NCBI RefSeq assembly: GCF_011044975.1
Contig: NZ_JAAKZV010000070.1
Span: 1-33,397 of the forward strand
Direction of reading: 5' to 3'
DNA length: 33,397 bases
Origin: Streptomyces coryli
Lineage (GTDB): Bacteria; Actinomycetota; Actinomycetes; Streptomycetales; Streptomycetaceae
Each line of letters opens with the position of its first letter. Positions within the stretch are counted from its first letter, which is position 1. The notes below the pieces were generated by a model. The model searched no databases. It was given only the letters and a program-made list of their open reading frames with translations, and was not told the DNA's origin. Shown piece after piece: positions 15,947-30,414 of this stretch. A program made the translations under genes and the position numbers.

Positions 15947-17860
15947 TCAGGCGCCGATCACGCCGCCGTCGGTACGGCGGATCACCACCGTCGCGGACCG
16001 CGGCCGGCCGGCCGGGTCGTGGTCCGGCCAGCTGCTCACCCCCTGCGGATTCGCCGGCGTCGACTCGCCCCAGGCCGCCGTCGTCTCCCCCGGATGCTGG
16101 ATGTTGACGAACATCGTCCGCTGGTCCGGGGTGGTGATGACGCCGGTGACCTCGCAGCCGCGGGGACCGGTGAGGAAGCGGCGGATCTCGCCGGTGCGCG
16201 GGTCGGCGGCGAGCATCTGGTTGTTGGCGATGTTGTCGTAGCCCTTGGAGGCCAGGTTCTGCGAGGAGTTGGAGATGTCGGTCTGGATCCACATCCGGCC
16301 GTCCGGGTCGAACCACAGGCCGTCTGGGGAGCCGAAGATGTCCGCCGGATCCAGCTTCACCCTCGGGTCGTACGCCGGGTCGCCGGCCAGCACGAAGATG
16401 TCCCAGCGGAAGGTGGTGGCGGTGTTGTCGGCGTCCTTCTCGCGCCAGCGGATGATGTGGCCGTACGGGTTCGGGGTGCGCGGATTCGCCGCGTTGCCGG
16501 CTCCGGCGCCGTTGGTGAGGGTGGCGTAGACGTCCTTGGTCCGCGGGTTGACGGCGGTCCACTCGGCGCGGTCCATCTTGGTGGCGCCCAGGGCATCGGC
16601 CGCCGTGCGGGTGCGGAGCAGGACGTCGGCCTGGTCCTGCCAGCCGTTCGCGGCGGTCAGCGGGCCCTTCCCGTATTCCAGGGGCAGCCAGGTCCCGGTG
16701 CCGTCGTCGTCGAAGCGGGCGACGTAGAGGGTGCCGTGGTCGAGCGGGCTGCGGCCGAGCGCGCGGTGCAGGCGCCAGGAGCCGCTGCCGACGAACTTGT
16801 AGATGTACTCGCCGTCCTGGTCGTCGCCCATGTACGCCACCACCCGGCCGCGGGCGGTGGTCATCACCGCGCCCTCGTGCTTGATCCGGCCCAGCCGGGT
16901 GCGCTTGACCGGCGTCGAGCCGGGCCGCATGGGGTCGATCTCGACGACCCAGCCGAAGCGGTTGGCCTCGTTCGGGTTGGTGGCGATGTCGAAGCGCGGG
17001 TCGGCGGTGTGCCAGCGGTAGCCGAAGCCGACGTTGTTGATGCCGTAACGGGCCTGCGCGGGACTCGGCTTCCAGCTCGCGTCCTCGGTGCCGAAGTAGG
17101 CGTTCCAGTTCTCCTCGCAGGTCACGTAGGTGCCCCAAGGGGTCACCCCGTGCGAGCAGTTGTTGAGGGTGCCCCTGGGCGGGCCCGCGGCCTTGAGCGC
17201 CGGGTGGCCGGGCGGGACCGGCCCCGAGTAGGTCACCGGGGTGTTGCCGGTGACCTTGCGGGCCAGCCCGGACTTGACGACTCGCCACGAGCCCCCGCGC
17301 TCGGCGATCTCCACGATGCTGACGCCGTGGGCGGCCAGTGCCTTGTCGACCTTCTCCTGCGTGATCACCTTGTCGCCGTCGGGGTAGAGGATCCCGGGCT
17401 GGACGTACTCGTGGTTCAGCACCAGCAGTCCGTGCCGGCTGCCGTCGCGACCGCGGCCCAGCGGAAAGAAGTTCATGCCGTCGTGGTGCATACCGACTTG
17501 CTGCGCCTGCTCGGCGGCGCTGTTGGAGGCGTCCTTGCGCCAGGCGGGGCCGTCGGGCTGGAGCGGGGTGCCCCAGGGGATGAGCACCTGCGCCTGGTAG
17601 CCCGCGGGCACCGTCACCTTGTCGGCGTCGCTGGTCGGGACGGGCGTGAAGCCGAGCAGCCCGCGGCCGGCCGCGGTCGCCGGGGCGCCCGCTCCGGCCC
17701 CGTAAGCGAGGAAGCCGGCCGCCGCGGCCGTGCTGCCGCGCAGGACGTTGCGGCGGGACAGCCGCGCCTCGACGACCTCCCGGAACGGCCGGTTCGCGGA
17801 CGGGTTGGAGCTGACCTCGTCGGGGTCGAACTCCGGGAAGGACGGGTGATTCGCAGCCAT
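15947..17860 (-). CDS. phoX: PhoX-family alkaline phosphatase, Tat-exported
   Basis: A 637-residue secreted phosphatase of the PhoX (DUF839) family, which releases phosphate from organic esters using Ca/Fe. The N-terminus has a twin-arginine signal SRRNVLRG (35-42) followed by an Ala-rich hydrophobic stretch and a likely cleavage after PATAA. Family features include HHDGMNFFPL, LNHEYVQPG, NNCSHGVTPWGTYVTCEENWN (in part; the conserved Cys pair and EENW), GRIKHEGAV, YMGDDQDGEYIYKF and SPDGLWFDPDGRMWIQTD. The ATG at 17860 has GAGGAT seven bases upstream. It is divergent from pstS across 252 bp, the normal partner in the PhoP regulon. Length is typical for actinobacterial PhoX. Confidence 0.93.
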   Translation of the reverse strand: MAANHPSFPEFDPDEVSSNPSANRPFREVVEARLSRRNVLRGSTAAAAGFLAYGAGAGAPATAAGRGLLGFTPVPTSDADKVTVPAGYQAQVLIPWGTPLQPDGPAWRKDASNSAAEQAQQVGMHHDGMNFFPLGRGRDGSRHGLLVLNHEYVQPGILYPDGDKVITQEKVDKALAAHGVSIVEIAERGGSWRVVKSGLARKVTGNTPVTYSGPVPPGHPALKAAGPPRGTLNNCSHGVTPWGTYVTCEENWNAYFGTEDASWKPSPAQARYGINNVGFGYRWHTADPRFDIATNPNEANRFGWVVEIDPMRPGSTPVKRTRLGRIKHEGAVMTTARGRVVAYMGDDQDGEYIYKFVGSGSWRLHRALGRSPLDHGTLYVARFDDDGTGTWLPLEYGKGPLTAANGWQDQADVLLRTRTAADALGATKMDRAEWTAVNPRTKDVYATLTNGAGAGNAANPRTPNPYGHIIRWREKDADNTATTFRWDIFVLAGDPAYDPRVKLDPADIFGSPDGLWFDPDGRMWIQTDISNSSQNLASKGYDNIANNQMLAADPRTGEIRRFLTGPRGCEVTGVITTPDQRTMFVNIQHPGETTAAWGESTPANPQGVSSWPDHDPAGRPRSATVVIRRTDGGVIGA

Positions 17861-17979: not shown

Positions 17980-17993
17980 CATCTATATAGATG
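17980..17993. promoter_or_regulatory. 14-bp perfect palindrome between phoX and pstS
   Basis: CATCTATATAGATG is a perfect palindrome in an AT-rich spot of the 252-bp divergent region. Its half-site CATCTAT/ATAGATG recurs at the arsR1 start (23413-23420) and the putative -10 of the ArsC-like gene (23322-23329). It may be a regulator site, a pair of overlapping -10 elements, or both. Confidence 0.5.
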
Positions 17994-18026
17994 AGCAGCT
18001 ATGATTTCATTCCTCGGCAGTTCCCC

Positions 18027-18048
18027 GTACACCGACCGTTCATATAGG
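18027..18048 (+). promoter_or_regulatory. Possible PHO box upstream of pstS
   Basis: Two adjacent 11-mers resemble the Streptomyces PhoP unit G(G/T)TCAYYYR(G/C)G: GTACACCGACC (8 of 11) and GTTCATATAGG (10 of 11). They lie 65-86 bp before the pstS start. Expected from known PhoP control of pst, but the match is weaker than the one at 23347-23368. Confidence 0.4.
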
Positions 18049-18112: not shown

Positions 18113-19090
18113 ATGAAGTCATCCACCAGGTCGTTACGCCGAGCCACCGCTCCACTGGCCCTGACCGCCGCCGTCGCCCTCACCGTGAGCGCGTGCGGCG
18201 GCTCCGACGCCGGGTCCGGCGGCAGCGGCAAGGAGGGCGAGAAGCTGTCCGGCACCATCCGGGTCGACGGGTCCAGCACCGTCGCGCCGCTGAGCACCGC
18301 CGCGGCGCAGCTGTTCCAGGCGGAGAACCCGGGTGTGAAGGTCACCGTGGGTACGTCCGGGACCGGCGGCGGGTTCGAGAAGTTCTGCGCCGGCGAGACC
18401 GACATCTCGGACGCCTCCCGGGCGATCGAGGACGACGAGAAGGCCGCCTGCGAGAAGAAGGACATCGCCTACGAGGAGTTCCAGATCGCCAATGACGGTC
18501 TGTCCGTCGTGGTGAGCAAGGACAACGACTTCGCCGAATGCCTGACCGTCGACCAGCTGAAGAAGATCTGGGCGCCCGGCTCCAAGGTCAACAACTGGAA
18601 CCAGGTCGACCCGAAGTTCCCGAGCGAGAAGCTGGAGCTGTTCGGCGCCGGCACCGACTCCGGCACCTTCGACTACTTCACCGAGGCGGTCAACGGCGAG
18701 GAGGGCAAGTCCCGTACGGACTACAGCCCCAGCGAGGACGACAACGTCACCGTCCAGGGCGTCTCCGGCTCCAAGGGCGGCATGGGCTACTTCGGCCTGT
18801 CGTACTACGAGGAGAACAAGGACAAGCTCAAGGTCCTGAAGATCGACGACGGTGACGGCTGCGTGGAGCCGAGCTCGAAGACCGTGCAGGACGGCACGTA
18901 CAAGCCGCTGTCCCGGCCGCTGTTCATCTACCCGAAGGCCTCCTCGCTGAAGAAGGCCGAGGTCGAGGCGTACGTCGAGTACTACGTCAAGAACCACGCC
19001 GACATCGCCGAGAAGGCGCAGTTCGTGCCGCTCAACTCCGAGCAGGAGGCGGAACTGAACAAGGCGCTCGAGAAGCTGCAGGGCCAGTAG
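18113..19090 (+). CDS. pstS: Phosphate-binding lipoprotein PstS
   Basis: A 325-residue solute-binding protein of the high-affinity phosphate ABC transporter. A basic N-terminus and hydrophobic stretch end in lipobox VSAC, with lipidated Cys28, then a Gly/Ser-rich spacer. Phosphate-binding loops are recognisable: DGSSTVAPL, GTSGTGGGFEKFCAGETDISDASR and GAGTDSGTFDYFTEAV. Acts outside the cytoplasmic membrane, handing phosphate (and, less well, arsenate) to PstCA. The ATG follows GGGGAA. First gene of pstS-pstC-pstA-pstB, with a 2-bp gap to pstC, divergent from phoX, and presumably induced by PhoP on phosphate limitation. Confidence 0.97.
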   Translation: MKSSTRSLRRATAPLALTAAVALTVSACGGSDAGSGGSGKEGEKLSGTIRVDGSSTVAPLSTAAAQLFQAENPGVKVTVGTSGTGGGFEKFCAGETDISDASRAIEDDEKAACEKKDIAYEEFQIANDGLSVVVSKDNDFAECLTVDQLKKIWAPGSKVNNWNQVDPKFPSEKLELFGAGTDSGTFDYFTEAVNGEEGKSRTDYSPSEDDNVTVQGVSGSKGGMGYFGLSYYEENKDKLKVLKIDDGDGCVEPSSKTVQDGTYKPLSRPLFIYPKASSLKKAEVEAYVEYYVKNHADIAEKAQFVPLNSEQEAELNKALEKLQGQ

Positions 19091-19092
19091 CC

Positions 19093-20046
19093 GTGAGCGC
19101 GCCCGAGAAAGGGCGGCGGCGCTCCGCCGCGGGAAGCCCCGGCTTCCTGCGGCGGTCGCAGCCGCGGCACGGCGAGAAGGTCATCAAGGTGCTGCTGGTG
19201 GCCGCCTCGCTGGTGTCCGTGGCGACCACGATCGGCATCGTGATCGCGCTGATCCCGCCGTCCATGGAGTTCTTCCGGCACGTCAGCTTCGGCGAGTTCA
19301 TCAGCGGTACGGAGTGGTCGCCGCTGTTCAAGCCGCCGCACTTCGGGGTGCTGCCGCTGGTCGGCGGCACGCTGATGGTCACGCTCATCGCGCTGCTCGT
19401 CGCCGTGCCGCTGGGGCTCGGCGCGGCGGTGTACCTGAGCGAGTACGCGGATCCCCGGCTGCGCTCCGTCTTCAAGCCGGTCCTCGAAGTCCTCGCCGGC
19501 ATCCCCACCGTCGTCTACGGGTTCTTCGCGCTGAAGGCGATCACGCCGCTGCTCAAGGACATCTGGCCGGCCGGGGACGGCCCGCAGGTCTTCAACGCCC
19601 TGGCGGCCGGCTTCGTCATGGGCGTCATGATCATCCCGACCATCGCCTCGCTCGCCGAGGACTCGATGAGCGCGGTGCCGCACGGGCTGCGGGACGGGGC
19701 GTACGCACTGGGCTCGTCCCGGATGCAGGTCTCCACCCGCGTCGTCTTCCCGGCCGCGCTGTCCGGGATCGTCGCCGCGATCGTGCTGGGCATCTCCCGG
19801 GCGGTCGGCGAGACGATGATCGTCGCCATCGCGGCGGGCGGCCGTCCGAACCTGTCCTTCAACCCGCTCGAAGGCATGCAGACGATGACCGCGTTCATCG
19901 CCGCCGCCGGGATCGGCGACCTGCCCACCGGCTCCATCGGCTACCAGACCATCTTCGCCGTGGGTGCGCTGCTGTTCGTCATGACGCTGGTGATGAACCT
20001 GCTCAGCATCCGCCTCGTGCGCAAATACCGGGAGGTGTACGAATGA
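19093..20046 (+). CDS. pstC: Phosphate ABC transporter permease PstC
   Basis: A 317-residue inner-membrane permease of the phosphate transporter. It has a basic cytoplasmic N-terminus, a first helix around 35-60, a periplasmic stretch, then the five-helix MetI-like core with LVAVPLGLGAAVYLSEYA, IPTVVYGFFALKAITPLL, the cytoplasmic coupling loop DGAYALGSSRMQVSTRVVFPAALSG (in part) and ISRAVGETMIVAIAAGG. GTG start three bases after the pstS stop. It overlaps pstA by four bases (ATGA), so PstC and PstA are made together and form the transmembrane pore. Confidence 0.96.
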   Translation: MSAPEKGRRRSAAGSPGFLRRSQPRHGEKVIKVLLVAASLVSVATTIGIVIALIPPSMEFFRHVSFGEFISGTEWSPLFKPPHFGVLPLVGGTLMVTLIALLVAVPLGLGAAVYLSEYADPRLRSVFKPVLEVLAGIPTVVYGFFALKAITPLLKDIWPAGDGPQVFNALAAGFVMGVMIIPTIASLAEDSMSAVPHGLRDGAYALGSSRMQVSTRVVFPAALSGIVAAIVLGISRAVGETMIVAIAAGGRPNLSFNPLEGMQTMTAFIAAAGIGDLPTGSIGYQTIFAVGALLFVMTLVMNLLSIRLVRKYREVYE

Positions 20047-20954
20047 CCTCCGACGTCATCCCCCGCGCGCCGGCCGCCGGCGCACCTGAGACACGTCGTC
20101 TGAAGGGCCGCGGCACCCCCTTGCGGGAGCGGTTCTTCCACCTCAGCCTGCTGGCCTCGCTCGCGGTCGGCGTGATCTTCCTGGTCGCGCTGCTCGCCTA
20201 CGTCGTGGTGGAGGGCTGGCCGCGTCTCGACTCGCGGATCTGGTCGAACTTCCCCGACATCATCAACCCCGCCAACGCCGGCGCCCAGTCCGCGATCATG
20301 GGCACCATCTGGATCATCGGCTTCACGGCGCTGTACTGCCTGCCCACCGGCATCCTCACCGCGATCTACCTGGAGGAGTACGCCGACCCGCTGCGCTGGT
20401 ACAACCGCGCCATCGAGATCAACATCCAGAATCTGGCGGCGGTTCCTTCCATCGTCTACGGCATCCTCGGCCTCGGGATCATCTCTCGCGGCCTCGGCTT
20501 CGGCCAGACCGTGATGACGGCCGCGCTCACCCTCTCGCTGCTGGTGCTGCCGATCGTGATCATCTCCTCTCGGGAGGCGATACGGGCGGTGCCGCGGTCC
20601 ATCCGCGACGCCTCCCTGGCGCTGGGCGCGACGCAATGGCAGACCGTCCGGCGCCAGGTCCTCCCGGCGGCCGTGCCCGGCATGGCCACCGGCGCAATCC
20701 TGGCCCTCTCGCGCGCGATCGGGGAAGCGGCACCGCTGCTGCTGCTCGGCGGGCTGACGTTCATCACCTTCAACCCGACCGGTGCGCAGAGTGCGTTCAC
20801 CGTGCTGCCCATCCAGATCTTCAACTGGATCAGTCAGTCGCGCGCGGAGTTCACCGCGCTCGCCTCGGCCGCGATCGTCGTGCTCCTGGTGATCCTGCTG
20901 GCCATGAACTCCCTGGCCATCTGGCTCCGCAACCGCTACGCCCGGCGCTGGTAA
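20043..20954 (+). CDS. pstA: Phosphate ABC transporter permease PstA
   Basis: A 303-residue second permease of the phosphate transporter. A first helix is near residues 33-55, then [51 protein letters not shown] (in part), the coupling loop [21 protein letters not shown] (in part), and [16 protein letters not shown]. The ATG overlaps the pstC stop (ATGA). A 52-bp gap holding a 17-bp-period direct repeat separates it from pstB, unusual within an otherwise tight operon. Confidence 0.96.
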
Positions 20955-20960
20955 GGCCGT

Positions 20961-20992
20961 ATCCGATGACAGACACGATCCGATGACAGACA
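20961..20992 (+). repeat. 15-bp direct repeat spanning the old pstB start
   Basis: ATCCGATGACAGACA occurs at 20961-20975 and 20978-20992, period 17. The first copy carries an ATG that opens a six-codon frame (MTDTIR) whose TGA overlaps the ATG of the second copy. The second ATG (20983) is in frame with pstB. Confidence 0.85.
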
Positions 20993-21006
20993 AGCAGGAG
21001 GCCGCG

Positions 21007-21855
21007 ATGACCTCACCCTCCGACGCCCCGGGCGGGACCAAGACCCCGCAGGTGGCCTTCCGCGACGCCCGGACCCTCGCCGACCCGGTCTTCGAGGTCG
21101 GCGGCCTGTCCGTCTTCTACGGCGATCACGAGGCCGTACGGGACGTCAACATGACCATCGGCCGCCAGCAGATCACCGCGATGATCGGCCCGTCCGGCTG
21201 CGGCAAGTCCACCGTGATCCGCTGCTTCAACCGGATGAACGACCTCATCCCCACCGCCCGCGTGGCCGGCAAGATCAGCTACCACGACGAGGACCTCTAC
21301 GGCCGCGAGGTCGACCCGATCGAGGTCCGCCGCCGCATCGGCATGGTCTTCCAGAAGCCGAACCCCTTCCCCAAGTCGATCTACGACAACATCGCCTACG
21401 GGCCGCGGGTGTCGGGCTTCAAGGGCAACCTCGACGACCTGGTCGAGGAGACCCTCACCCACGCCGCCCTGTGGGACGAGGTCAAGGACAAGCTCAAGAC
21501 CTCCGCCCTCTCCCTCTCCGGCGGCCAGCAGCAGCGGCTGTGCATCGCCCGTACCATCGCGGTCGAGCCGGAGGTGATCCTCATGGACGAGCCGTGCTCG
21601 GCGCTCGACCCGATCGCCACCGCCAAGATCGAGGACCTGATGGAGCGGCTGTCGCGGGAGTTCACGATCATCGTGGTCACCCACAACATGCAGCAGGCGG
21701 CCCGGGTCTCGCACCGCACCGCCTTCTTCACCGCCGACGTGGACGACAAGGGCGAGCGGCACGGCCGGCTGGTCGAGTACGACGAGACCATCCGGATCTT
21801 CGAGCACCCAGCCGATCAGCGCACCGAGGACTACATCTCCGGCCGCTTCGGCTGA
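21007..21855 (+). CDS. pstB: Phosphate ABC transporter ATPase PstB
   Basis: A 282-residue ATPase that drives PstSCA. Walker [10 protein letters not shown] (61-69), Q-loop VFQKPNPFP, signature LSGGQ (170-174), Walker B ending D194-E195, and [11 protein letters not shown] for the switch His. The C-terminus YISGRFG is typical. Start choice: the ATG at 21007 has AGGAGG five bases upstream (20996-21001); an in-frame ATG at 20983 would add eight residues (MTDKQEAA) and lies in the duplicated repeat. The protein is about 25 residues longer than E. coli PstB because of an N-terminal extension common in actinobacteria. Confidence 0.95.
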
Positions 21856-21871
21856 CGGCGATACGGGACCC

Positions 21872-22648
21872 GTGGTGACCGCCGACGACCGCCACCGCCA
21901 CCACCGTCCGACCGGACTCGACCCGCAGCCGGACCTGCTGCTGGCCGAGCCCGACGAGGCGGTGGCCGCCCGCGTCATGGCCCGCTTCGAGCGCGCGGGC
22001 GTACGCACGATCGTGTGCCTGGACGGCGCCGAGGCGCTGCTGCAGGCCGGGTACCACCACCCGCGGATCGTGCTCCTCGGCGCTCCGCTGCCGGTGGTCG
22101 ACGCGGCGCGGGTGACCGAACTGATCGCCCGGCTGCACCCGGTGCCGGTGATCGTCGGCGCCGGCACCGACGGCGCGAGCGAGGCGACCGCGGCGCTGTC
22201 GGCGGGCGCGGTGGCGTTCGTGACCCGCCCGTACCGGATCGAGGAGATCCTGCCGCTGCTCATCCCCGCCCGGAAGGAAGCGGCACCGGCACCGGAGCAT
22301 CTGGTCGTGGGCGACATCGAGCTCGACCTCGCCGGCTTCCATGTCTTCGTTTCCGGCCGCCAGTTGCAGCTGCCGGTCCGCGAACTGATGCTGCTGCGCT
22401 ACCTGATGGAACACGCCGGCCGCGTCGTCACCCGCCTCGAACTCACCAAGGCCATCTGGGGCGTCGACCACCTGGAGAGCAACAGCCTCACCGTCCACAT
22501 CCGCCGCATCCGCCGCAAGGTCCAGGAGGAGGGCGGCAGCACCTGCACGATCGACGCGATCCGCGGCGTCGGCTACCGCCTGGACTGCAGGCGGCAGAAC
22601 ACGATGCCCACGCAGCGACGGAACGTCCGCCCGGTCGCTACGGGATGA
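21872..22648 (+). CDS. Atypical OmpR-type regulator with degenerate receiver domain
   Basis: A 258-residue regulator starting 16 bp after pstB, probably on the same transcript. Residues about 20-130 fold like a receiver but lack the phosphorylation site: the phospho-acceptor position is Gly (G70 in VLLGAPLP), the acidic pocket is reduced to E26-P-D28, and the conserved Lys is Arg (R119 in VTRPY). Residues about 140-240 are a complete OmpR/PhoB winged helix (LPVRELMLLRYLMEHAGRVV in part, TKAIWGVDHLESNSLTVHIRR in part, IRGVGYRL). It should bind DNA independently of a kinase. Position suggests feedback on phosphate or arsenate handling; that is inference. GTG start at 21872 (a second GTG at 21875). 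Its 3' end overlaps the convergent ArsC-like gene by 11 bp. Confidence 0.85.
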   Translation: MVTADDRHRHHRPTGLDPQPDLLLAEPDEAVAARVMARFERAGVRTIVCLDGAEALLQAGYHHPRIVLLGAPLPVVDAARVTELIARLHPVPVIVGAGTDGASEATAALSAGAVAFVTRPYRIEEILPLLIPARKEAAPAPEHLVVGDIELDLAGFHVFVSGRQLQLPVRELMLLRYLMEHAGRVVTRLELTKAIWGVDHLESNSLTVHIRRIRRKVQEEGGSTCTIDAIRGVGYRLDCRRQNTMPTQRRNVRPVATG

Positions 22649-23303
22649 GCGGAGCGGCCGGCGCCAGCTCCTCGGCGAGCCGGTCGATGCGGCGGCTCAG
22701 GGCGTCACGTACGGCCCGGGCGCTCTCGATGTCCAGGCCGGACAGATCCGGCAGGTCCCAGTCCACGTACCGCCGCCCGGGCACCACCGGACAGGCATCG
22801 CCGCAGCCCAGGGTGACCACGACATCGGCGGCGCCGACGGCCTCGCGGGTGATGGGCTTGGGGAACTCCGCGCCGATGCCGAGCCCTTGCTCGGCGAGCA
22901 GTTGGCGCACCACGGACGCGACGTCCGTGCCCGGCTCGGAGCCCGCCGTCAGTACGGTGACCGCCCCGGCCGTGCGGTGCCGCAGCAGCGCCGCGGCCAG
23001 CTGGGACCGCCCGGCATTCTCCGTACACACGAACAGCACCTCGGGCACCGGCTTCGGGCACAGCCCCTGCGCCCGCGCGAGCGCGCCCAGCCGCTGATCG
23101 GCGAACCGCTCGACCAGCACCGGCAGATGGCGGACGACGCGGGCCCGGGCACCCAGCAGCTCCGCGCACTCGGCCACGTAATCGGCCACCGTGGCGCGGG
23201 AGAAGGCCCGCCGGTGGCGGGCGGCCAGCCGGTCCGTGACGCGCTCCAGCACGGCGTGGCTGTCCCGCAGCTCCGGCACCTCGGATCTGCGGGGCTCGTC
23301 CAT
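22638..23303 (-). CDS. ArsC-like phosphatase/arsenate reductase with N-terminal helical domain
   Basis: A 221-residue fusion. Residues about 10-80 are an all-helical domain (three-helix bundle seen fused to actinobacterial ArsC-like proteins). Residues about 86-220 are a low-molecular-weight-phosphatase-fold arsenate reductase: VLFVCTENAGRSQ with the P-loop C93-X5-R99, ITREAVGAADVVVTLGCGDACP with the reducing Cys pair, and GRRYVDWDLPD. It would reduce arsenate to arsenite in the cytoplasm. The start is the ATG at 23303; an ATG at 23324 would add seven residues. The best reason for 23303 is that a PHO box at 23347-23368 plus a CATAGAT element 17 bp further would start the transcript between the two ATGs. 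It is divergent from arsR1. Confidence 0.85.
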   Translation of the reverse strand: MDEPRRSEVPELRDSHAVLERVTDRLAARHRRAFSRATVADYVAECAELLGARARVVRHLPVLVERFADQRLGALARAQGLCPKPVPEVLFVCTENAGRSQLAAALLRHRTAGAVTVLTAGSEPGTDVASVVRQLLAEQGLGIGAEFPKPITREAVGAADVVVTLGCGDACPVVPGRRYVDWDLPDLSGLDIESARAVRDALSRRIDRLAEELAPAAPLIP

Positions 23304-23346
23304 ACAGGAAGAATAGGTGAGCATCTATGCACTGGGCAGACTTCGC

Positions 23347-23368
23347 GTGAGGTGAACCCTGGGTGAAC
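23347..23368 (-). promoter_or_regulatory. PHO box (PhoP operator) upstream of the ArsC-like gene
   Basis: On the minus strand two adjacent 11-mers, GTTCACCCAGG (23368-23358, matching the Streptomyces unit G(G/T)TCAYYYR(G/C)G at all 11 positions) and GTTCACCTCAC (23357-23347, 8 of 11). A CATAGAT -10-like element begins 17 bp downstream, so the second unit takes the place of the -35, the geometry of PhoP-activated promoters. Confidence 0.65.
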
Positions 23369-23417
23369 AAACGGCCGTTGCGGCTGCGTGTAGCCTGAAT
23401 CGATTTACGGTACATAG

Positions 23418-23789
23418 ATGGCTGTCACTACATACGGCGCATCCGCGTCACCCGCGCAGAAGACCGGAGCCTGCGACTCCGGAGAGCTTGCCGGCCCACC
23501 GATCGAGCGCGACGAGGCCGAACAACTGGCAGCCTCCCTCAAGGCCATCGCCGACCCCACCCGCCTGCAGCTGCTCCGCCTGATCGAGCAGGCCCCCAAG
23601 GGCGAGGCCTGCGTCTGCGACCTGACGGACGCCCTCGGCCTGCGCCAGCCGACCATCAGCCACCACCTGAAGGTCATGACCGAGGCGGGCCTGCTGCACC
23701 GCGAACGTCGCGGCACGTGGTCGTGGTACTCCCTCAACCGCGACGGCCTGCGCAGCCTGCGCGAGATCCTGCGGCCGGCGGACGACTGA
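23418..23789 (+). CDS. arsR: ArsR-family arsenic/metalloid repressor (1)
   Basis: A 123-residue winged-helix repressor of the SmtB/ArsR family. ADPTRLQLLRLI and the recognition helix QPTISHHLKVMTEAGLL are typical, and the ligand helix contains C65-V-C67-D (the CVCDL site that binds As(III)), with an extra Cys19 in the N-terminal arm. The ATG at 23418 has no ribosome site; TACGGT six bases upstream (23406-23411) would give a leaderless message. Divergent from the ArsC-like gene and convergent with arsC. The start codon is part of CATAGATG, a half-site repeated elsewhere in the region. Confidence 0.92.
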   Translation: MAVTTYGASASPAQKTGACDSGELAGPPIERDEAEQLAASLKAIADPTRLQLLRLIEQAPKGEACVCDLTDALGLRQPTISHHLKVMTEAGLLHRERRGTWSWYSLNRDGLRSLREILRPADD

Positions 23790-23807: not shown

Positions 23808-24221
23808 CTACGCCTTGGCCGCCGGGGCGATCTCGGCGATCAGCTCCTCGACCAGGCCCTTGATCTGATCCCGGATGGGACGTACGGCCGCGACGCCCTG
23901 GCCCGCCGGGTCCTCCAGCTTCCAGTCCAGGTAGCGCTTGCCGGGGAAAACCGGGCAGGCGTCGCCGCAGCCCATCGTGATGCAGACGTCGGACGCCTTG
24001 ACAGCGTCGACGGTGAGGATCTTCGGGGTCTCGGCGGCGATGTCGATGCCGACCTCGCGCATCGCCTCGACCACGGCCGGGTTGACGGTGTCGGCAGGGG
24101 CCGACCCGGCGGAGCGGACCTCGACGCGGTCGCCGGCGAGGTGGGCGAGCCAGGCGGCGGCCATCTGGGAGCGGCCGGCGTTGTGGACGCAGACGAAGAG
24201 CACGGAGGGCTTGGCGGTCAT
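23808..24221 (-). CDS. arsC: Arsenate reductase ArsC
   Basis: A 137-residue arsenate reductase of the LMW-phosphatase fold. The P-loop is C11-X5-R17 in VLFVCVHNAGRSQMAAAW, followed by RSAGSAPAD and the redox cysteines C80, C85 and C89 in VCITMGCGDACPVFPGKRY (CGDACP), then LEDPAGQG, the conserved D-P pair of the active site. It reduces arsenate with thiol help (thioredoxin or mycothiol cannot be told apart here), giving arsenite for Acr3. Start ATG 24221 with a leaderless-type promoter. Divergent from arsR2-acr3-arsO. Confidence 0.93.
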   Translation of the reverse strand: MTAKPSVLFVCVHNAGRSQMAAAWLAHLAGDRVEVRSAGSAPADTVNPAVVEAMREVGIDIAAETPKILTVDAVKASDVCITMGCGDACPVFPGKRYLDWKLEDPAGQGVAAVRPIRDQIKGLVEELIAEIAPAAKA

Positions 24222-24227
24222 GATGTG

Positions 24228-24257
24228 AGAGTATCAGTGCATGCTGACATCAGTCGA
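24228..24257 (-). promoter_or_regulatory. Candidate leaderless promoter of arsC
   Basis: On the minus strand TCGACT (24257-24252), 18-base spacer, TACTCT (24233-24228), six bases before the ATG at 24221. The -35 lies inside the palindrome at 24249-24264, so a repressor bound there would block arsC. Confidence 0.5.
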
Positions 24258-24264
24258 GACTGAT
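24233..24264. promoter_or_regulatory. Candidate ArsR2 operator
   Basis: A perfect inverted repeat ATCAGTC-GA-GACTGAT (24249-24264), plus an additional ATCAGT (24233-24238) 16 bp upstream. The palindrome lies inside codons 3-8 of arsR2 and covers the arsC -35; the single copy overlaps the promoter zone of both genes. Confidence 0.55.
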
Positions 24265-24552
24265 CTGATCCGCGTACTCGCGGATCCGCTCAGGATGCAG
24301 ATCGTGCATCTGCTGGCCCGCGAGACGCTGTGCACCACGCACCTGGTCGAGGAGACCGGCGCCCGCCAGACGAACCTCTCCAACCACCTGCGGGTGCTGC
24401 GCGAGGCGGGCGTGGTGGAGACCGAGCCGTGCGGCCGCTTCGTCTACTACAAGCTGCGGCCCGAGGTCCTCGAATCGCTGGCCGGCTCCTTCACCGAGCT
24501 CGCCGCCACCGCCCGTACGACCGTCGAAAACGATCGAAAGCGAGCCTGCTGA
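24241..24552 (+). CDS. arsR: ArsR-family repressor (2), linked to acr3
   Basis: A 103-residue ArsR-type repressor. VLADPLRMQIVHLLA and the recognition helix RQTNLSNHLRVLREAGVV (18 residues) are clear. It lacks the CVC site of arsR1 and arsR3; its cysteines are C31 (ETLCTTHL), C64 (EPCGRF) and the C-terminal C103, so arsenite is probably sensed through a different thiol arrangement. The ATG has no ribosome site, consistent with leaderless expression. It is followed directly by acr3 with no spacing. The promoter is shared divergently with arsC. Confidence 0.9.
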   Translation: MLTSVETDLIRVLADPLRMQIVHLLARETLCTTHLVEETGARQTNLSNHLRVLREAGVVETEPCGRFVYYKLRPEVLESLAGSFTELAATARTTVENDRKRAC

Positions 24553-25659
24553 ATGACCGCGACCGAATCCGGCACCGCCTCCGCGCAGGCCAGCGCATCA
24601 GCCGGGGACGACGCCTCGATCGTCGCCAAGCTTTCGACGCTCGACCGCTACCTCGCCGTGTGGATCCTCGCCGCCATGGCCCTCGGGCTGGGGCTTGGGC
24701 GGCTGATCCCCGGCCTGAACGACGCCCTCGCCAAGGTCGAGATCGGCGGCATCTCGCTGCCGATCGCCCTCGGCCTGCTGGTGATGATGTATCCGGTGCT
24801 GGCCAAGGTCCGCTACGACCGGCTCGACGCCGTCACCGGCGACCGGAAGCTCATGATCTCCTCGCTGGTGGTCAACTGGGTGCTCGGCCCCGCGATCATG
24901 TTCGCGCTGGCCTGGATCTTCCTGCCCGACCTGCCCGAGTACCGCACCGGCCTGATCATCGTCGGCCTGGCCCGCTGCATCGCGATGGTCATCATCTGGA
25001 ACGACCTCGCCTGCGGCGACCGCGAGGCAGCCGCCGTCCTCGTGGCCCTCAACTCCGTCTTCCAGGTCGTGATGTTCGGCGTCCTCGGCTGGTTCTACCT
25101 CGACCTGCTCCCCGGCTGGCTGGGCCTCGGCGACGGCGAACACCTCGACATCTCGATGTGGAAGATCGCGCTGAACGTCGTCATCTTCCTCGGCATCCCG
25201 CTCCTGGCGGGCTTCCTCACCCGCCGTATCGGCGAGAAGAAGCTGGGCCAGGAGGCATACGAGTCGAAGTTCCTGCCGAAGATCGGCCCGTGGGCGCTCT
25301 ACGGCCTGCTCTTCACGATCGTCATCCTCTTCGCCCTGCAGGGGAAGACGATCACCTCGCAGCCGCTGGACGTGGCCCGTATCGCGCTGCCGCTGCTGGT
25401 CTACTTCGCGCTGATGTGGTTCGGCACCTTCGCCCTCGGCAAGGCCCTCGGCCTCGCCTACGACCGCACCGCGACGCTCGCCTTCACCGCGGCCGGCAAT
25501 AACTTCGAGCTCGCCATCGCGGTCGCCATCGCCACCTTCGGCGTGACCAGCGGCCAGGCCCTCTCCGGCGTCGTCGGCCCGCTGATCGAGGTGCCGGTGC
25601 TGGTGGCCCTGGTCTACGTATCGCTGGCCTGGCGACGGAAGTTCAGCCCGGCGGCGTGA
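24553..25659 (+). CDS. acr3: Arsenite efflux permease Acr3
   Basis: A 368-residue inner-membrane arsenite exporter of the ACR3 family with about ten hydrophobic helices after a 25-residue Ala/Ser-rich cytoplasmic start. Family blocks: MMYPVLAKVRYD, ARCIAMVIIWNDLACGD with the essential Cys (C142) on the transport helix, and FTAAGNNFELAIAVAIATFG. It exports arsenite using the proton gradient. The ATG directly follows the arsR2 stop, and its own stop overlaps the GTG of the flavoprotein gene (GTGA). arsR2-acr3-arsO is therefore one operon. Confidence 0.95.
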   Translation: MTATESGTASAQASASAGDDASIVAKLSTLDRYLAVWILAAMALGLGLGRLIPGLNDALAKVEIGGISLPIALGLLVMMYPVLAKVRYDRLDAVTGDRKLMISSLVVNWVLGPAIMFALAWIFLPDLPEYRTGLIIVGLARCIAMVIIWNDLACGDREAAAVLVALNSVFQVVMFGVLGWFYLDLLPGWLGLGDGEHLDISMWKIALNVVIFLGIPLLAGFLTRRIGEKKLGQEAYESKFLPKIGPWALYGLLFTIVILFALQGKTITSQPLDVARIALPLLVYFALMWFGTFALGKALGLAYDRTATLAFTAAGNNFELAIAVAIATFGVTSGQALSGVVGPLIEVPVLVALVYVSLAWRRKFSPAA

Positions 25660-29503: not shown

Positions 29504-29989
29504 TTAGCTCCAGGGGATCGACGCCAGATATTTGACCAGCTCCGCGATGGCCTCCCCCGGGGCGGCCTTGATGGTCCACTTGAGCGGGTTGAGGTTACTC
29601 AAGCCGTCGACCCACTCGTTGAAGGACTTGACGCCGTTCTGCGCCGCCTCCCAGGCCGGCTTGGCATACTTGCTGCCGGCCTTCTTGATCGCGTTCCAGA
29701 GCGCCTTGGCAGCGGCACCGAGCCCCGCCCTGTCCTGCGCTCCGCCCTCCTGCTCCAGCGCGGTCCTGACCTGCTCGACGTCGGCCGCCGTGAGGCCTTC
29801 ACCCTTCCCCTGGGCGATGAGGTTCAGGGCCTGCTGCAGTGACGCCTGCTGGTCTGGAGTCAGCGCACCGGCCGCAGCGACAGGACGCCCCTGGGGCGCC
29901 TCCTGCGCGTGCACCAGACCGGACGCGCCCCCGAGCGTGAGTGCCGTCACAATCGAAACAGATGCCAAGCGTATGGCGTTGCGGTTCAC
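29504..29989 (-). CDS. Secreted small helical protein (unknown)
   Basis: A 161-residue protein with a Sec signal peptide (NRNAIRLASVSIVTALTLGG in part) and a predicted cleavage after VHA (VHA|QEAPQG), giving a mature chain of about 130 residues. The first half (LTPDQQASLQQALNLIAQGK in part, GLTAADVEQVRTALEQEGG in part) is helical and acidic. The second half is cationic, amphipathic and Trp-rich: LWNAIKKAGSKYAKPAWEAA, GVKSFNEWVDGL, NPLKW, ending YLASIPWS. The GTG start at 29989 is preceded by AAGGGAAA; longer upstream starts were rejected. Similar Lys/Trp-rich secreted proteins occur in Streptomyces with no known role. A bacteriocin-like or surface-active function is possible but unproven. Confidence 0.7.
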   Translation of the reverse strand: MNRNAIRLASVSIVTALTLGGASGLVHAQEAPQGRPVAAAGALTPDQQASLQQALNLIAQGKGEGLTAADVEQVRTALEQEGGAQDRAGLGAAAKALWNAIKKAGSKYAKPAWEAAQNGVKSFNEWVDGLSNLNPLKWTIKAAPGEAIAELVKYLASIPWS

Positions 29990-30006
29990 GTATTGTTTCC
30001 CTTGCG

Positions 30007-30037: not shown

Positions 30038-30414
30038 GCGGCCTGGAAAGTGTGGAAACCGAAAGGCCCACGACTGGCTCTCTCCCCCTTGATTTTGCGC
30101 AGGGTTCGATACGCAAGGCCCGCGTAGTGAATACGAGCAGTCCGTCGCGTGCGCAAGCGTGGATTCTCAACCCCGTGCAATTACTGGCCTGTTCCCGATG
30201 GTCAGTCGGGCTGTTGGCGGGTAAAAACTAACACGATCTTTTCTCACGTAACCATCACAGCTTCTGCGGAAATCGTGTGACGTAAGCCACAGTCATCGAT
30301 CTTTAGATGCCGCCAACTATCCAACATTCGGGCATAGTTGACGTCCCGTGTACGAGACTTCGAACCGCCGATAATCACTGGCGCCCGGCCACTGGCCGGC
30401 GTCACGATGGCGCG
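30038..30414. other. Gene-free, lower-GC region
   Basis: No convincing gene. AT content rises to about half around 30215-30310 (TAAAAAC, TTTTCTCACG), then returns to normal. ACACGAT (30231-30237) and ATCGTGT (30272-30278) are complementary but 34 bases apart. It probably contains the promoter of the LysE-type gene. Confidence 0.5.

Follow-up and report, generated by a model that had tools for sequence, protein, structure and literature searches.

How is an arsenate-reductase-like gene controlled that lies beside a pst operon and carries a PhoP-type repeat in its promoter: by phosphate, by arsenic, or by both? The window, i.e., the whole stretch of 33,397 nucleotides from Streptomyces coryli analyzed here, contains ars genes together with pst and pho genes, as do the arsenic islands with pst genes that have already been described (PMC3834237). 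The promoter region in question separates two divergent genes and comprises the following features.

23347..23368, minus strand: PHO box of two 11-nt direct-repeat units (23368-23358 and 23357-23347)
22638..23303, minus strand: arsCn, arsenate-reductase-like, with a three-helix domain at the N terminus and a low-molecular-weight-phosphatase fold (PF21234, PF01451, NF046112, 3t38)
23310..23315, minus strand: probable arsCn -10 element TATTCT (conserved columns; our own assignment)
23313..23328, minus strand: palindrome ATAGATGCTCACCTAT over the arsCn -10, probable ArsR1 operator (predicted ArsR binding)
23418..23789, plus strand: arsR1, ArsR/SmtB-family regulator (NF033788 over cut-off, PF01022)
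23406..23411, plus strand: probable arsR1 -10 element TACGGT, 6 nt before the ATG (our own assignment)
23414..23429, plus strand: ATAGATG half-site spanning the arsR1 start codon, putative operator

The minus strand of 23347-23368 reads GTTCACCCAGG-GTTCACCTCAC, which bears out the sequence and location given in the original prediction. Its two 11-nt direct-repeat units, with a GTTCACC core and 9 bp between the CA pairs, have the build described for the Streptomyces PHO box (PMC4415409, PMC7244524). A search of the 33,397 bases with the pattern GTTCACC-N4-GTTCACC returned eight matches; only this one is free of mismatches, the remaining seven have 3 mismatches, and the shuffled window gave a mean of 2.25 matches at ≤3 mismatches. 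Scoring with a PhoP position matrix had been proposed, and a unit matrix was built from Pho sites of related genomes. At 26.4 bits the box is the top PhoP-type site of the window, a score that is only partly independent because most training sites (all except the phoU units) had been picked via GTTCAC-N5-GTTCAC. Runners-up scored 17.2 bits at 29984 and 13.0 bits at 18027, upstream of pstS, and the top sites of 60 simulated windows had a mean of 11.4 bits and a maximum of 18.2 bits. The assertion that the box is better than any site upstream of pstS or phoX holds (26.4 versus 13.0 bits), with the same reservation about the matrix. A LysE-type exporter gene at 30307 follows the second-best PhoP-type site (29984-30005) at a distance of about 300 bp.

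In relatives of arsCn, MDEQ or a similar opening aligns with 23303; the gene probably starts at the ATG there and not at 23324, as had been assumed. The conserved TATTCT (23315-23310) begins 53 nt past the first base of the box and 6 nt before this ATG; the arsCn transcript of the window is therefore probably leaderless. The sequence formerly read as a -10-like element 17 bp downstream of the repeat turned out to be the left half of the conserved palindrome. Furthermore, the gene product had been called a phosphatase. Among solved structures, 3t38 comes closest (E 4.7e-49, residues 17-208), an entry deposited as an arsenate reductase that we take to be ArsC1' of C. glutamicum. Both proteins share the two-domain layout, the CX5R loop and the CGDxCP motif, but the loop reads CTENAGR in arsCn and CVHNAGR in 3t38. 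A PF21234/NF046112 domain followed by PF01451, as found here, is the layout of actinobacterial arsenate reductases with a three-helix N-terminal domain; the protein stayed under the NCBIfam cut-offs of TIGR02689 (49.3/157.6 bits), TIGR02691 (42.2/174.3 bits) and NF010053 (43.2/215 bits). Arsenate reduction would be the likelier activity. Streptomyces orthologues are 65-76% identical to arsCn of the window, the partial L020 aside. On plasmids pFRL6 (L072, 9703-11112) and pFRL5 (L073, 9690-11099) a gene for an FAD-dependent oxidoreductase directly follows arsCn; the window has none at this place.

The box was compared among 26 loci with a divergent arsR1/arsCn pair, the window counted in. The locus set consisted of 28 loci from a related-locus search, enlarged by further genomes and two linear plasmids; the plasmid hits H2 and H3 lie outside it. 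Excluded from the 26 were L019, with no divergent arsR1 beside the gene; L020, L036 and L067, with a partial or broken gene; L071 and L074, 58% identical and with arsR otherwise arranged; L021, L022 and L024-L028, from other taxa and ≤52% identical; the paralogues L037-L058; duplicates of loci already counted, e.g., L029-L035, L059, L060, L062, L066, L069 and L070; and L147, a second copy in genome G013 with a shortened arsC gene. GTTCAC-N5-GTTCAC occurs with at most one mismatch in its 12 positions in 24 of the 26 loci and is perfect in 15 of those 24; the loci are mutually related and these counts are not independent. The box had been expected to persist in relatives that keep the gene pair: it does so at these 24 loci and is missing through deletions at L013 and L061. 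L061, a second copy in one genome, has lost box and palindrome together; L013 has retained the palindrome, the arsR1-arsCn pair and a PhoP gene, which counts against PhoP as the reader of the box.

Mean pairwise identity was 0.90 and 1.00 for the two box hexamers, 0.54 for their spacer, 0.42 upstream, 0.46 between box and palindrome, 0.74 for the palindrome and 0.92 at the arsR1 start. These figures refer to 22 rows selected for presence of the box; L013 and L061 (no box) as well as L009 and L011 were left out, the latter two being included in the box and spacing counts of the 26 loci. After dinucleotide shuffling of the same 22 rows, 6 of 11,000 sequences carried the repeat at ≤1 mismatch and none carried it perfectly. 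The distance from box to palindrome at the 24 loci is 40 nt in 17 cases, 41 nt in one, 42 nt in three and 43 nt in three; that from the arsR1 start to the box is 63-64 nt in 22 of 24 and 52-53 nt, about one helical turn shorter, in the window and L063. Apparently, the box is kept in step with both promoters despite the drifting DNA between them, as follows from the steady spacing on both sides. The box was found in none of 22 paralogous arsC upstream regions, and it is absent from all 21 usable arsC2 upstream regions (24 less L001, L005 and L008, whose excised stretches extended over the arsCn box); a general feature of ars genes is thus rejected. Among 392 sampled genomes of the genus, 40 have a match at 1e-40; a close orthologue (1e-86 or better) is present in 7, counting the centre. 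The island is therefore accessory. A second draw from the genus gave no independent sample, its hits being those of the first draw plus its own centre.

The perfect repeat was then sought in the genomes of 16 relatives, all of them arsCn carriers. It occurred 50 times, the reversed-pattern control 5 times. Nine of the 50 are the arsCn box by sequence and place, and 18 of the other 41 were chosen and inspected. Fourteen of these 18 lie at Pho genes: ten before a housekeeping pstS (all ten over the TIGR00975 cut-off), one before a PHO4-type phosphate transporter and three before phoX. The rest comprise one in a damaged second ars copy (L147), two beside a gene with a CDP-alcohol phosphatidyltransferase domain and one without a listed gene. 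Related GTTCACC/GTTCATT units were seen in the phoU promoters read, i.e., at three of 11 loci. Since housekeeping pstS, the PHO4-type transporter and phoX of the same genomes carry the repeat, PhoP is its most likely reader, and the 23347-23368 repeat is most likely a PhoP operator.

The housekeeping pstS promoter of Streptomyces, a member of the PhoP regulon, offers a close comparison. It has the same GTTCACC-N4-GTTCAC repeat, and the first base of this repeat lies 49 nt from a putative -10 (TAATTT) there as against 53 nt (TATTCT) in arsCn, both -10 elements being our own assignment. The two promoters differ in that housekeeping pstS carries additional PHO-like units closer to the -10, which arsCn lacks; this counts against PhoP, as does the report of PHO boxes also at genes with no obvious phosphate response (PMC4415409). 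Conversely, arsCn has the palindrome nearer the -10, whereas no ATAG-N8-CTAT palindrome was seen in the stretches of housekeeping pstS viewed.

At arsCn, ATAG-N8-CTAT overlaps the -10 in 25 of the 26 loci. As in ArsR operators, inverted repeats are found at the arsR promoter and at those of its supposed targets, the arsR1 copy being imperfect, and the palindrome is probably an ArsR operator. ArsR1 is its likely ligand, as related sites stand at the promoters of one island, that of arsR1 itself included. Because the palindrome sits on the arsCn -10 and kindred sites occur at arsR1 and the island pstS, control by arsenic through ArsR has probably been kept and PhoP been added. The original prediction of a PhoP-type operator before an arsenate-reductase-like gene beside the pst operon is thereby upheld in its first part; its second part, control by phosphate rather than by arsenic, lacks support in view of the conserved palindrome on the -10.

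From the observed sequence of the repeat, its conservation, its fixed spacing and its likeness to the Pho-gene repeats of the same genomes, we consider it likely that PhoP uses the repeat as its operator and that the region between arsR1 and arsCn is a promoter with two inputs. Expression of arsCn would probably depend jointly on arsenic and phosphate and not on phosphate in place of arsenic. ArsR1 is predicted to occupy the palindrome over the arsCn -10 and the half-site at its own start codon and to depart once arsenite is present. When phosphate is scarce, phosphorylated PhoP would bind the direct repeat at about -65 to -44 of arsCn and raise transcription. We infer activation rather than repression; PhoP might act as at housekeeping pstS, where the first two units have nearly the same distance from the -10, and any effect on arsR1 is likewise putative. 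Arsenate reductase would then be highest with arsenic present and phosphate uptake turned up.

The remaining features of the island are as follows.

15947..17860, minus strand: phoX, divergent from pstS (PF05787)
17980..18002, plus strand: palindrome CATCTATATAGATG, which overlaps ATAGATGAGCAGCTAT; probable ArsR site before the island pstS
18005..18048, plus strand: weak PHO-like units (18005, 18027, 18038), spaced in 11-nt phase and following the pstS palindrome
18113..19090, plus strand: pstS of the TIGR02136 type
19093..20046, plus strand: pstC (TIGR02138 over cut-off)
20043..20954, plus strand: pstA (position, reading frame, tblastn hits to island loci)
20983..21855, plus strand: pstB (TIGR00972 over cut-off)
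21872..22648, plus strand: OmpR/PhoB-type response regulator with G replacing the phosphoacceptor Asp (PF00072, PF00486, alignment)
23808..24221, minus strand: arsC2, second arsenate-reductase-like gene, no PHO box upstream (PF01451)
24241..24552, plus strand: arsR2 (own sequence, reading frame, relatives)
24553..25659, plus strand: acr3, arsenite efflux gene (TIGR00832 over cut-off)

A second ars unit is formed by arsC2, arsR2, acr3 and a flavin oxidoreductase, the matching oxidoreductase of pFRL6 being annotated as ArsO. Upstream of the island pstS, CTATA(T/G)AGATG is present in 17 of 22 distinct cases. The five without the exact pattern are two plasmids with one mismatch, the degraded copy L061, and L092 and L096, the former a G288 pstS with no linkage to arsCn, the latter a second nearby pstS in G233; at these last two, which stand in other settings, the combination of an ArsR-like palindrome with 11-nt-phased PHO-like units was not found. 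A pair of the GTACACC-N4-GTTCATA type was detected in 18 of the 22 distinct pstS upstream regions. In the window the units at 18005, 18027 and 18038 scored 5.8, 4.1 and 8.9 bits, and the second of the four slots -12.0. This box is weak and lies downstream of both the palindrome and a likely -10, which again counts against PhoP.

The regulator encoded behind pstB provides a different candidate reader. An alignment of 23 distinct island copies shows G, A or S at the phosphoacceptor position in every one, and Arg or His in place of the conserved Lys; the Asp is retained in PhoP and the remaining regulators compared. The protein therefore departs from a canonical response regulator, and neither on pFRL5 nor on pFRL6 does the annotation show a sensor kinase next to its gene. 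OmpR-type regulators bind direct repeats of such a kind. Hence, the arsCn repeat may be read by the island's own regulator instead of PhoP: arsenite would free the pstS promoter of ArsR1, more pstSCAB and Asp-less regulator would be made, and arsCn would be switched on with no phosphate signal. We regard this as unlikely, although several observations suit it. The gene is present at all 22 loci with a linked pstB and is the last of an operon preceded by an ArsR-type palindrome; furthermore, G011, the genome of L013, has neither the box nor an orthologue of the regulator (best identity 32%). Against it, the repeat equals the box found at housekeeping Pho genes of these genomes, the recognition helix of the regulator (TKTLDVHVKRLR) differs from that of PhoP (SNTLTVHVRRVR), and at L002 the box is perfect while the regulator is reduced to a fragment and no pst was found before the contig ends. 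The notion that the box occurs only where pst and regulator are linked fits L013 and is contradicted by L002; it is suggestive, not safe, and the contig of L018 ends about 1 kb past arsCn. Should a phosphorylation-deaf regulator indeed read PHO-type repeats, which we doubt, release of ArsR1 by arsenic would start a Pho-like programme of the island (Pst plus arsenate reductase) uncoupled from phosphate sensing of the cell, with PhoP still feeding into the same boxes.

A Frankiaceae metagenome-assembled genome (L021) speaks to the same question. Here, GTTCACCTGCTGTTCACC is located just after pstB and about 300 bp before an arsCn that is 52% identical and has the same two domains; tblastn at 1e-8 listed no regulator there, which disfavors the island regulator as the reader. 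The ATAG-type palindrome was not found in this pstB-arsCn region. At 2001-3893 of L021, PHO boxes also occur between a pstS-like gene and pstB, besides the one between pstB and arsCn.

PhoP might also bind and repress, or act on arsR1, and the arsenic genes would then be lowered or tuned during phosphate starvation. The box keeps an equally steady distance from arsR1 and from arsCn, and PhoP is a repressor from some positions, too (PMC7244524). However, the box precedes the likely arsCn -10 by nearly as much as in housekeeping pstS and is not placed as a road block, and we hold this possibility to be quite improbable. A functionless chance resemblance, for which L013 might be cited as it keeps the gene pair without the repeat, is rejected as extremely improbable on account of the match counts in the window, the conservation far above the flanks, the shuffles (6 of 11,000), the simulated windows and the steady spacing.

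A PhoP operator combined with a probable ArsR operator, the reading we prefer, has relatives among Proteobacteria. In Halomonas sp. HAL1 a PhoB-bound Pho box precedes the arsenite oxidase genes aioBA (PMC4563254; also PMC7533571). Both cases have a Pho box at an arsenic gene and an island with pstSCAB (PMC4563254); HAL1 differs in being a Proteobacterium, in oxidizing arsenite, and in that neither arsC nor an ArsR site is part of the promoter as described (PMC4563254). In Agrobacterium tumefaciens 5A, ArsR1 represses the island genes pstS1 and phoB1 (PMC7965956). Common to both systems is ArsR control of an island pst and its regulator gene, demonstrated by expression and gel shift in A. tumefaciens (PMC7965956) and suggested by a shared palindrome in the Streptomyces island; PhoB1 of A. 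tumefaciens is described as phosphorylated (PMC7533571), in contrast to the Asp-less regulator here. Arsenate is named as a competitor of phosphate in a review on phosphate in Streptomyces (PMC7866108), and the pst genes of Rhodococcus BCP1 were reported not to be induced by arsenate (PMC6514093). No report of a PhoP box at a Streptomyces arsenic gene was among the literature matches listed, in which subscription journals are largely uncovered. Given these precedents, and none listed for Streptomyces, a combined PhoP/ArsR-type promoter on a Streptomyces arsC appears to be new, as a variant on a known theme of which both controls are known singly in Proteobacteria.

The two-input promoter would also make physiological sense. 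Arsenate enters cells via phosphate uptake, and Pst turned up in low phosphate therefore raises the arsenic risk of the cell. With a PHO box next to sites like those of an arsenic repressor, arsenic defence is probably strengthened under phosphate starvation, when mistaken import of arsenate is most likely. A promoter taking both signals would be a simple feed-forward answer to arsenate import and would help to explain why such islands have a pst of their own. It would also extend the arsenic-phosphate link of Proteobacteria to Actinobacteria and add an arsenic gene to the PhoP regulon. The conserved promoter makes the two-signal idea testable in common laboratory strains of Streptomyces.

Additionally, two of the loci with the repeat deserve mention together with a promoter copy. 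In two Streptomyces genomes a perfect PHO-type repeat lies beside the gene with a CDP-alcohol phosphatidyltransferase domain (L148 and L150). At L147 (1289-1500) of G013, a second copy of the arsR1-arsCn promoter has box and palindrome-like sequence intact next to the shortened arsC gene.
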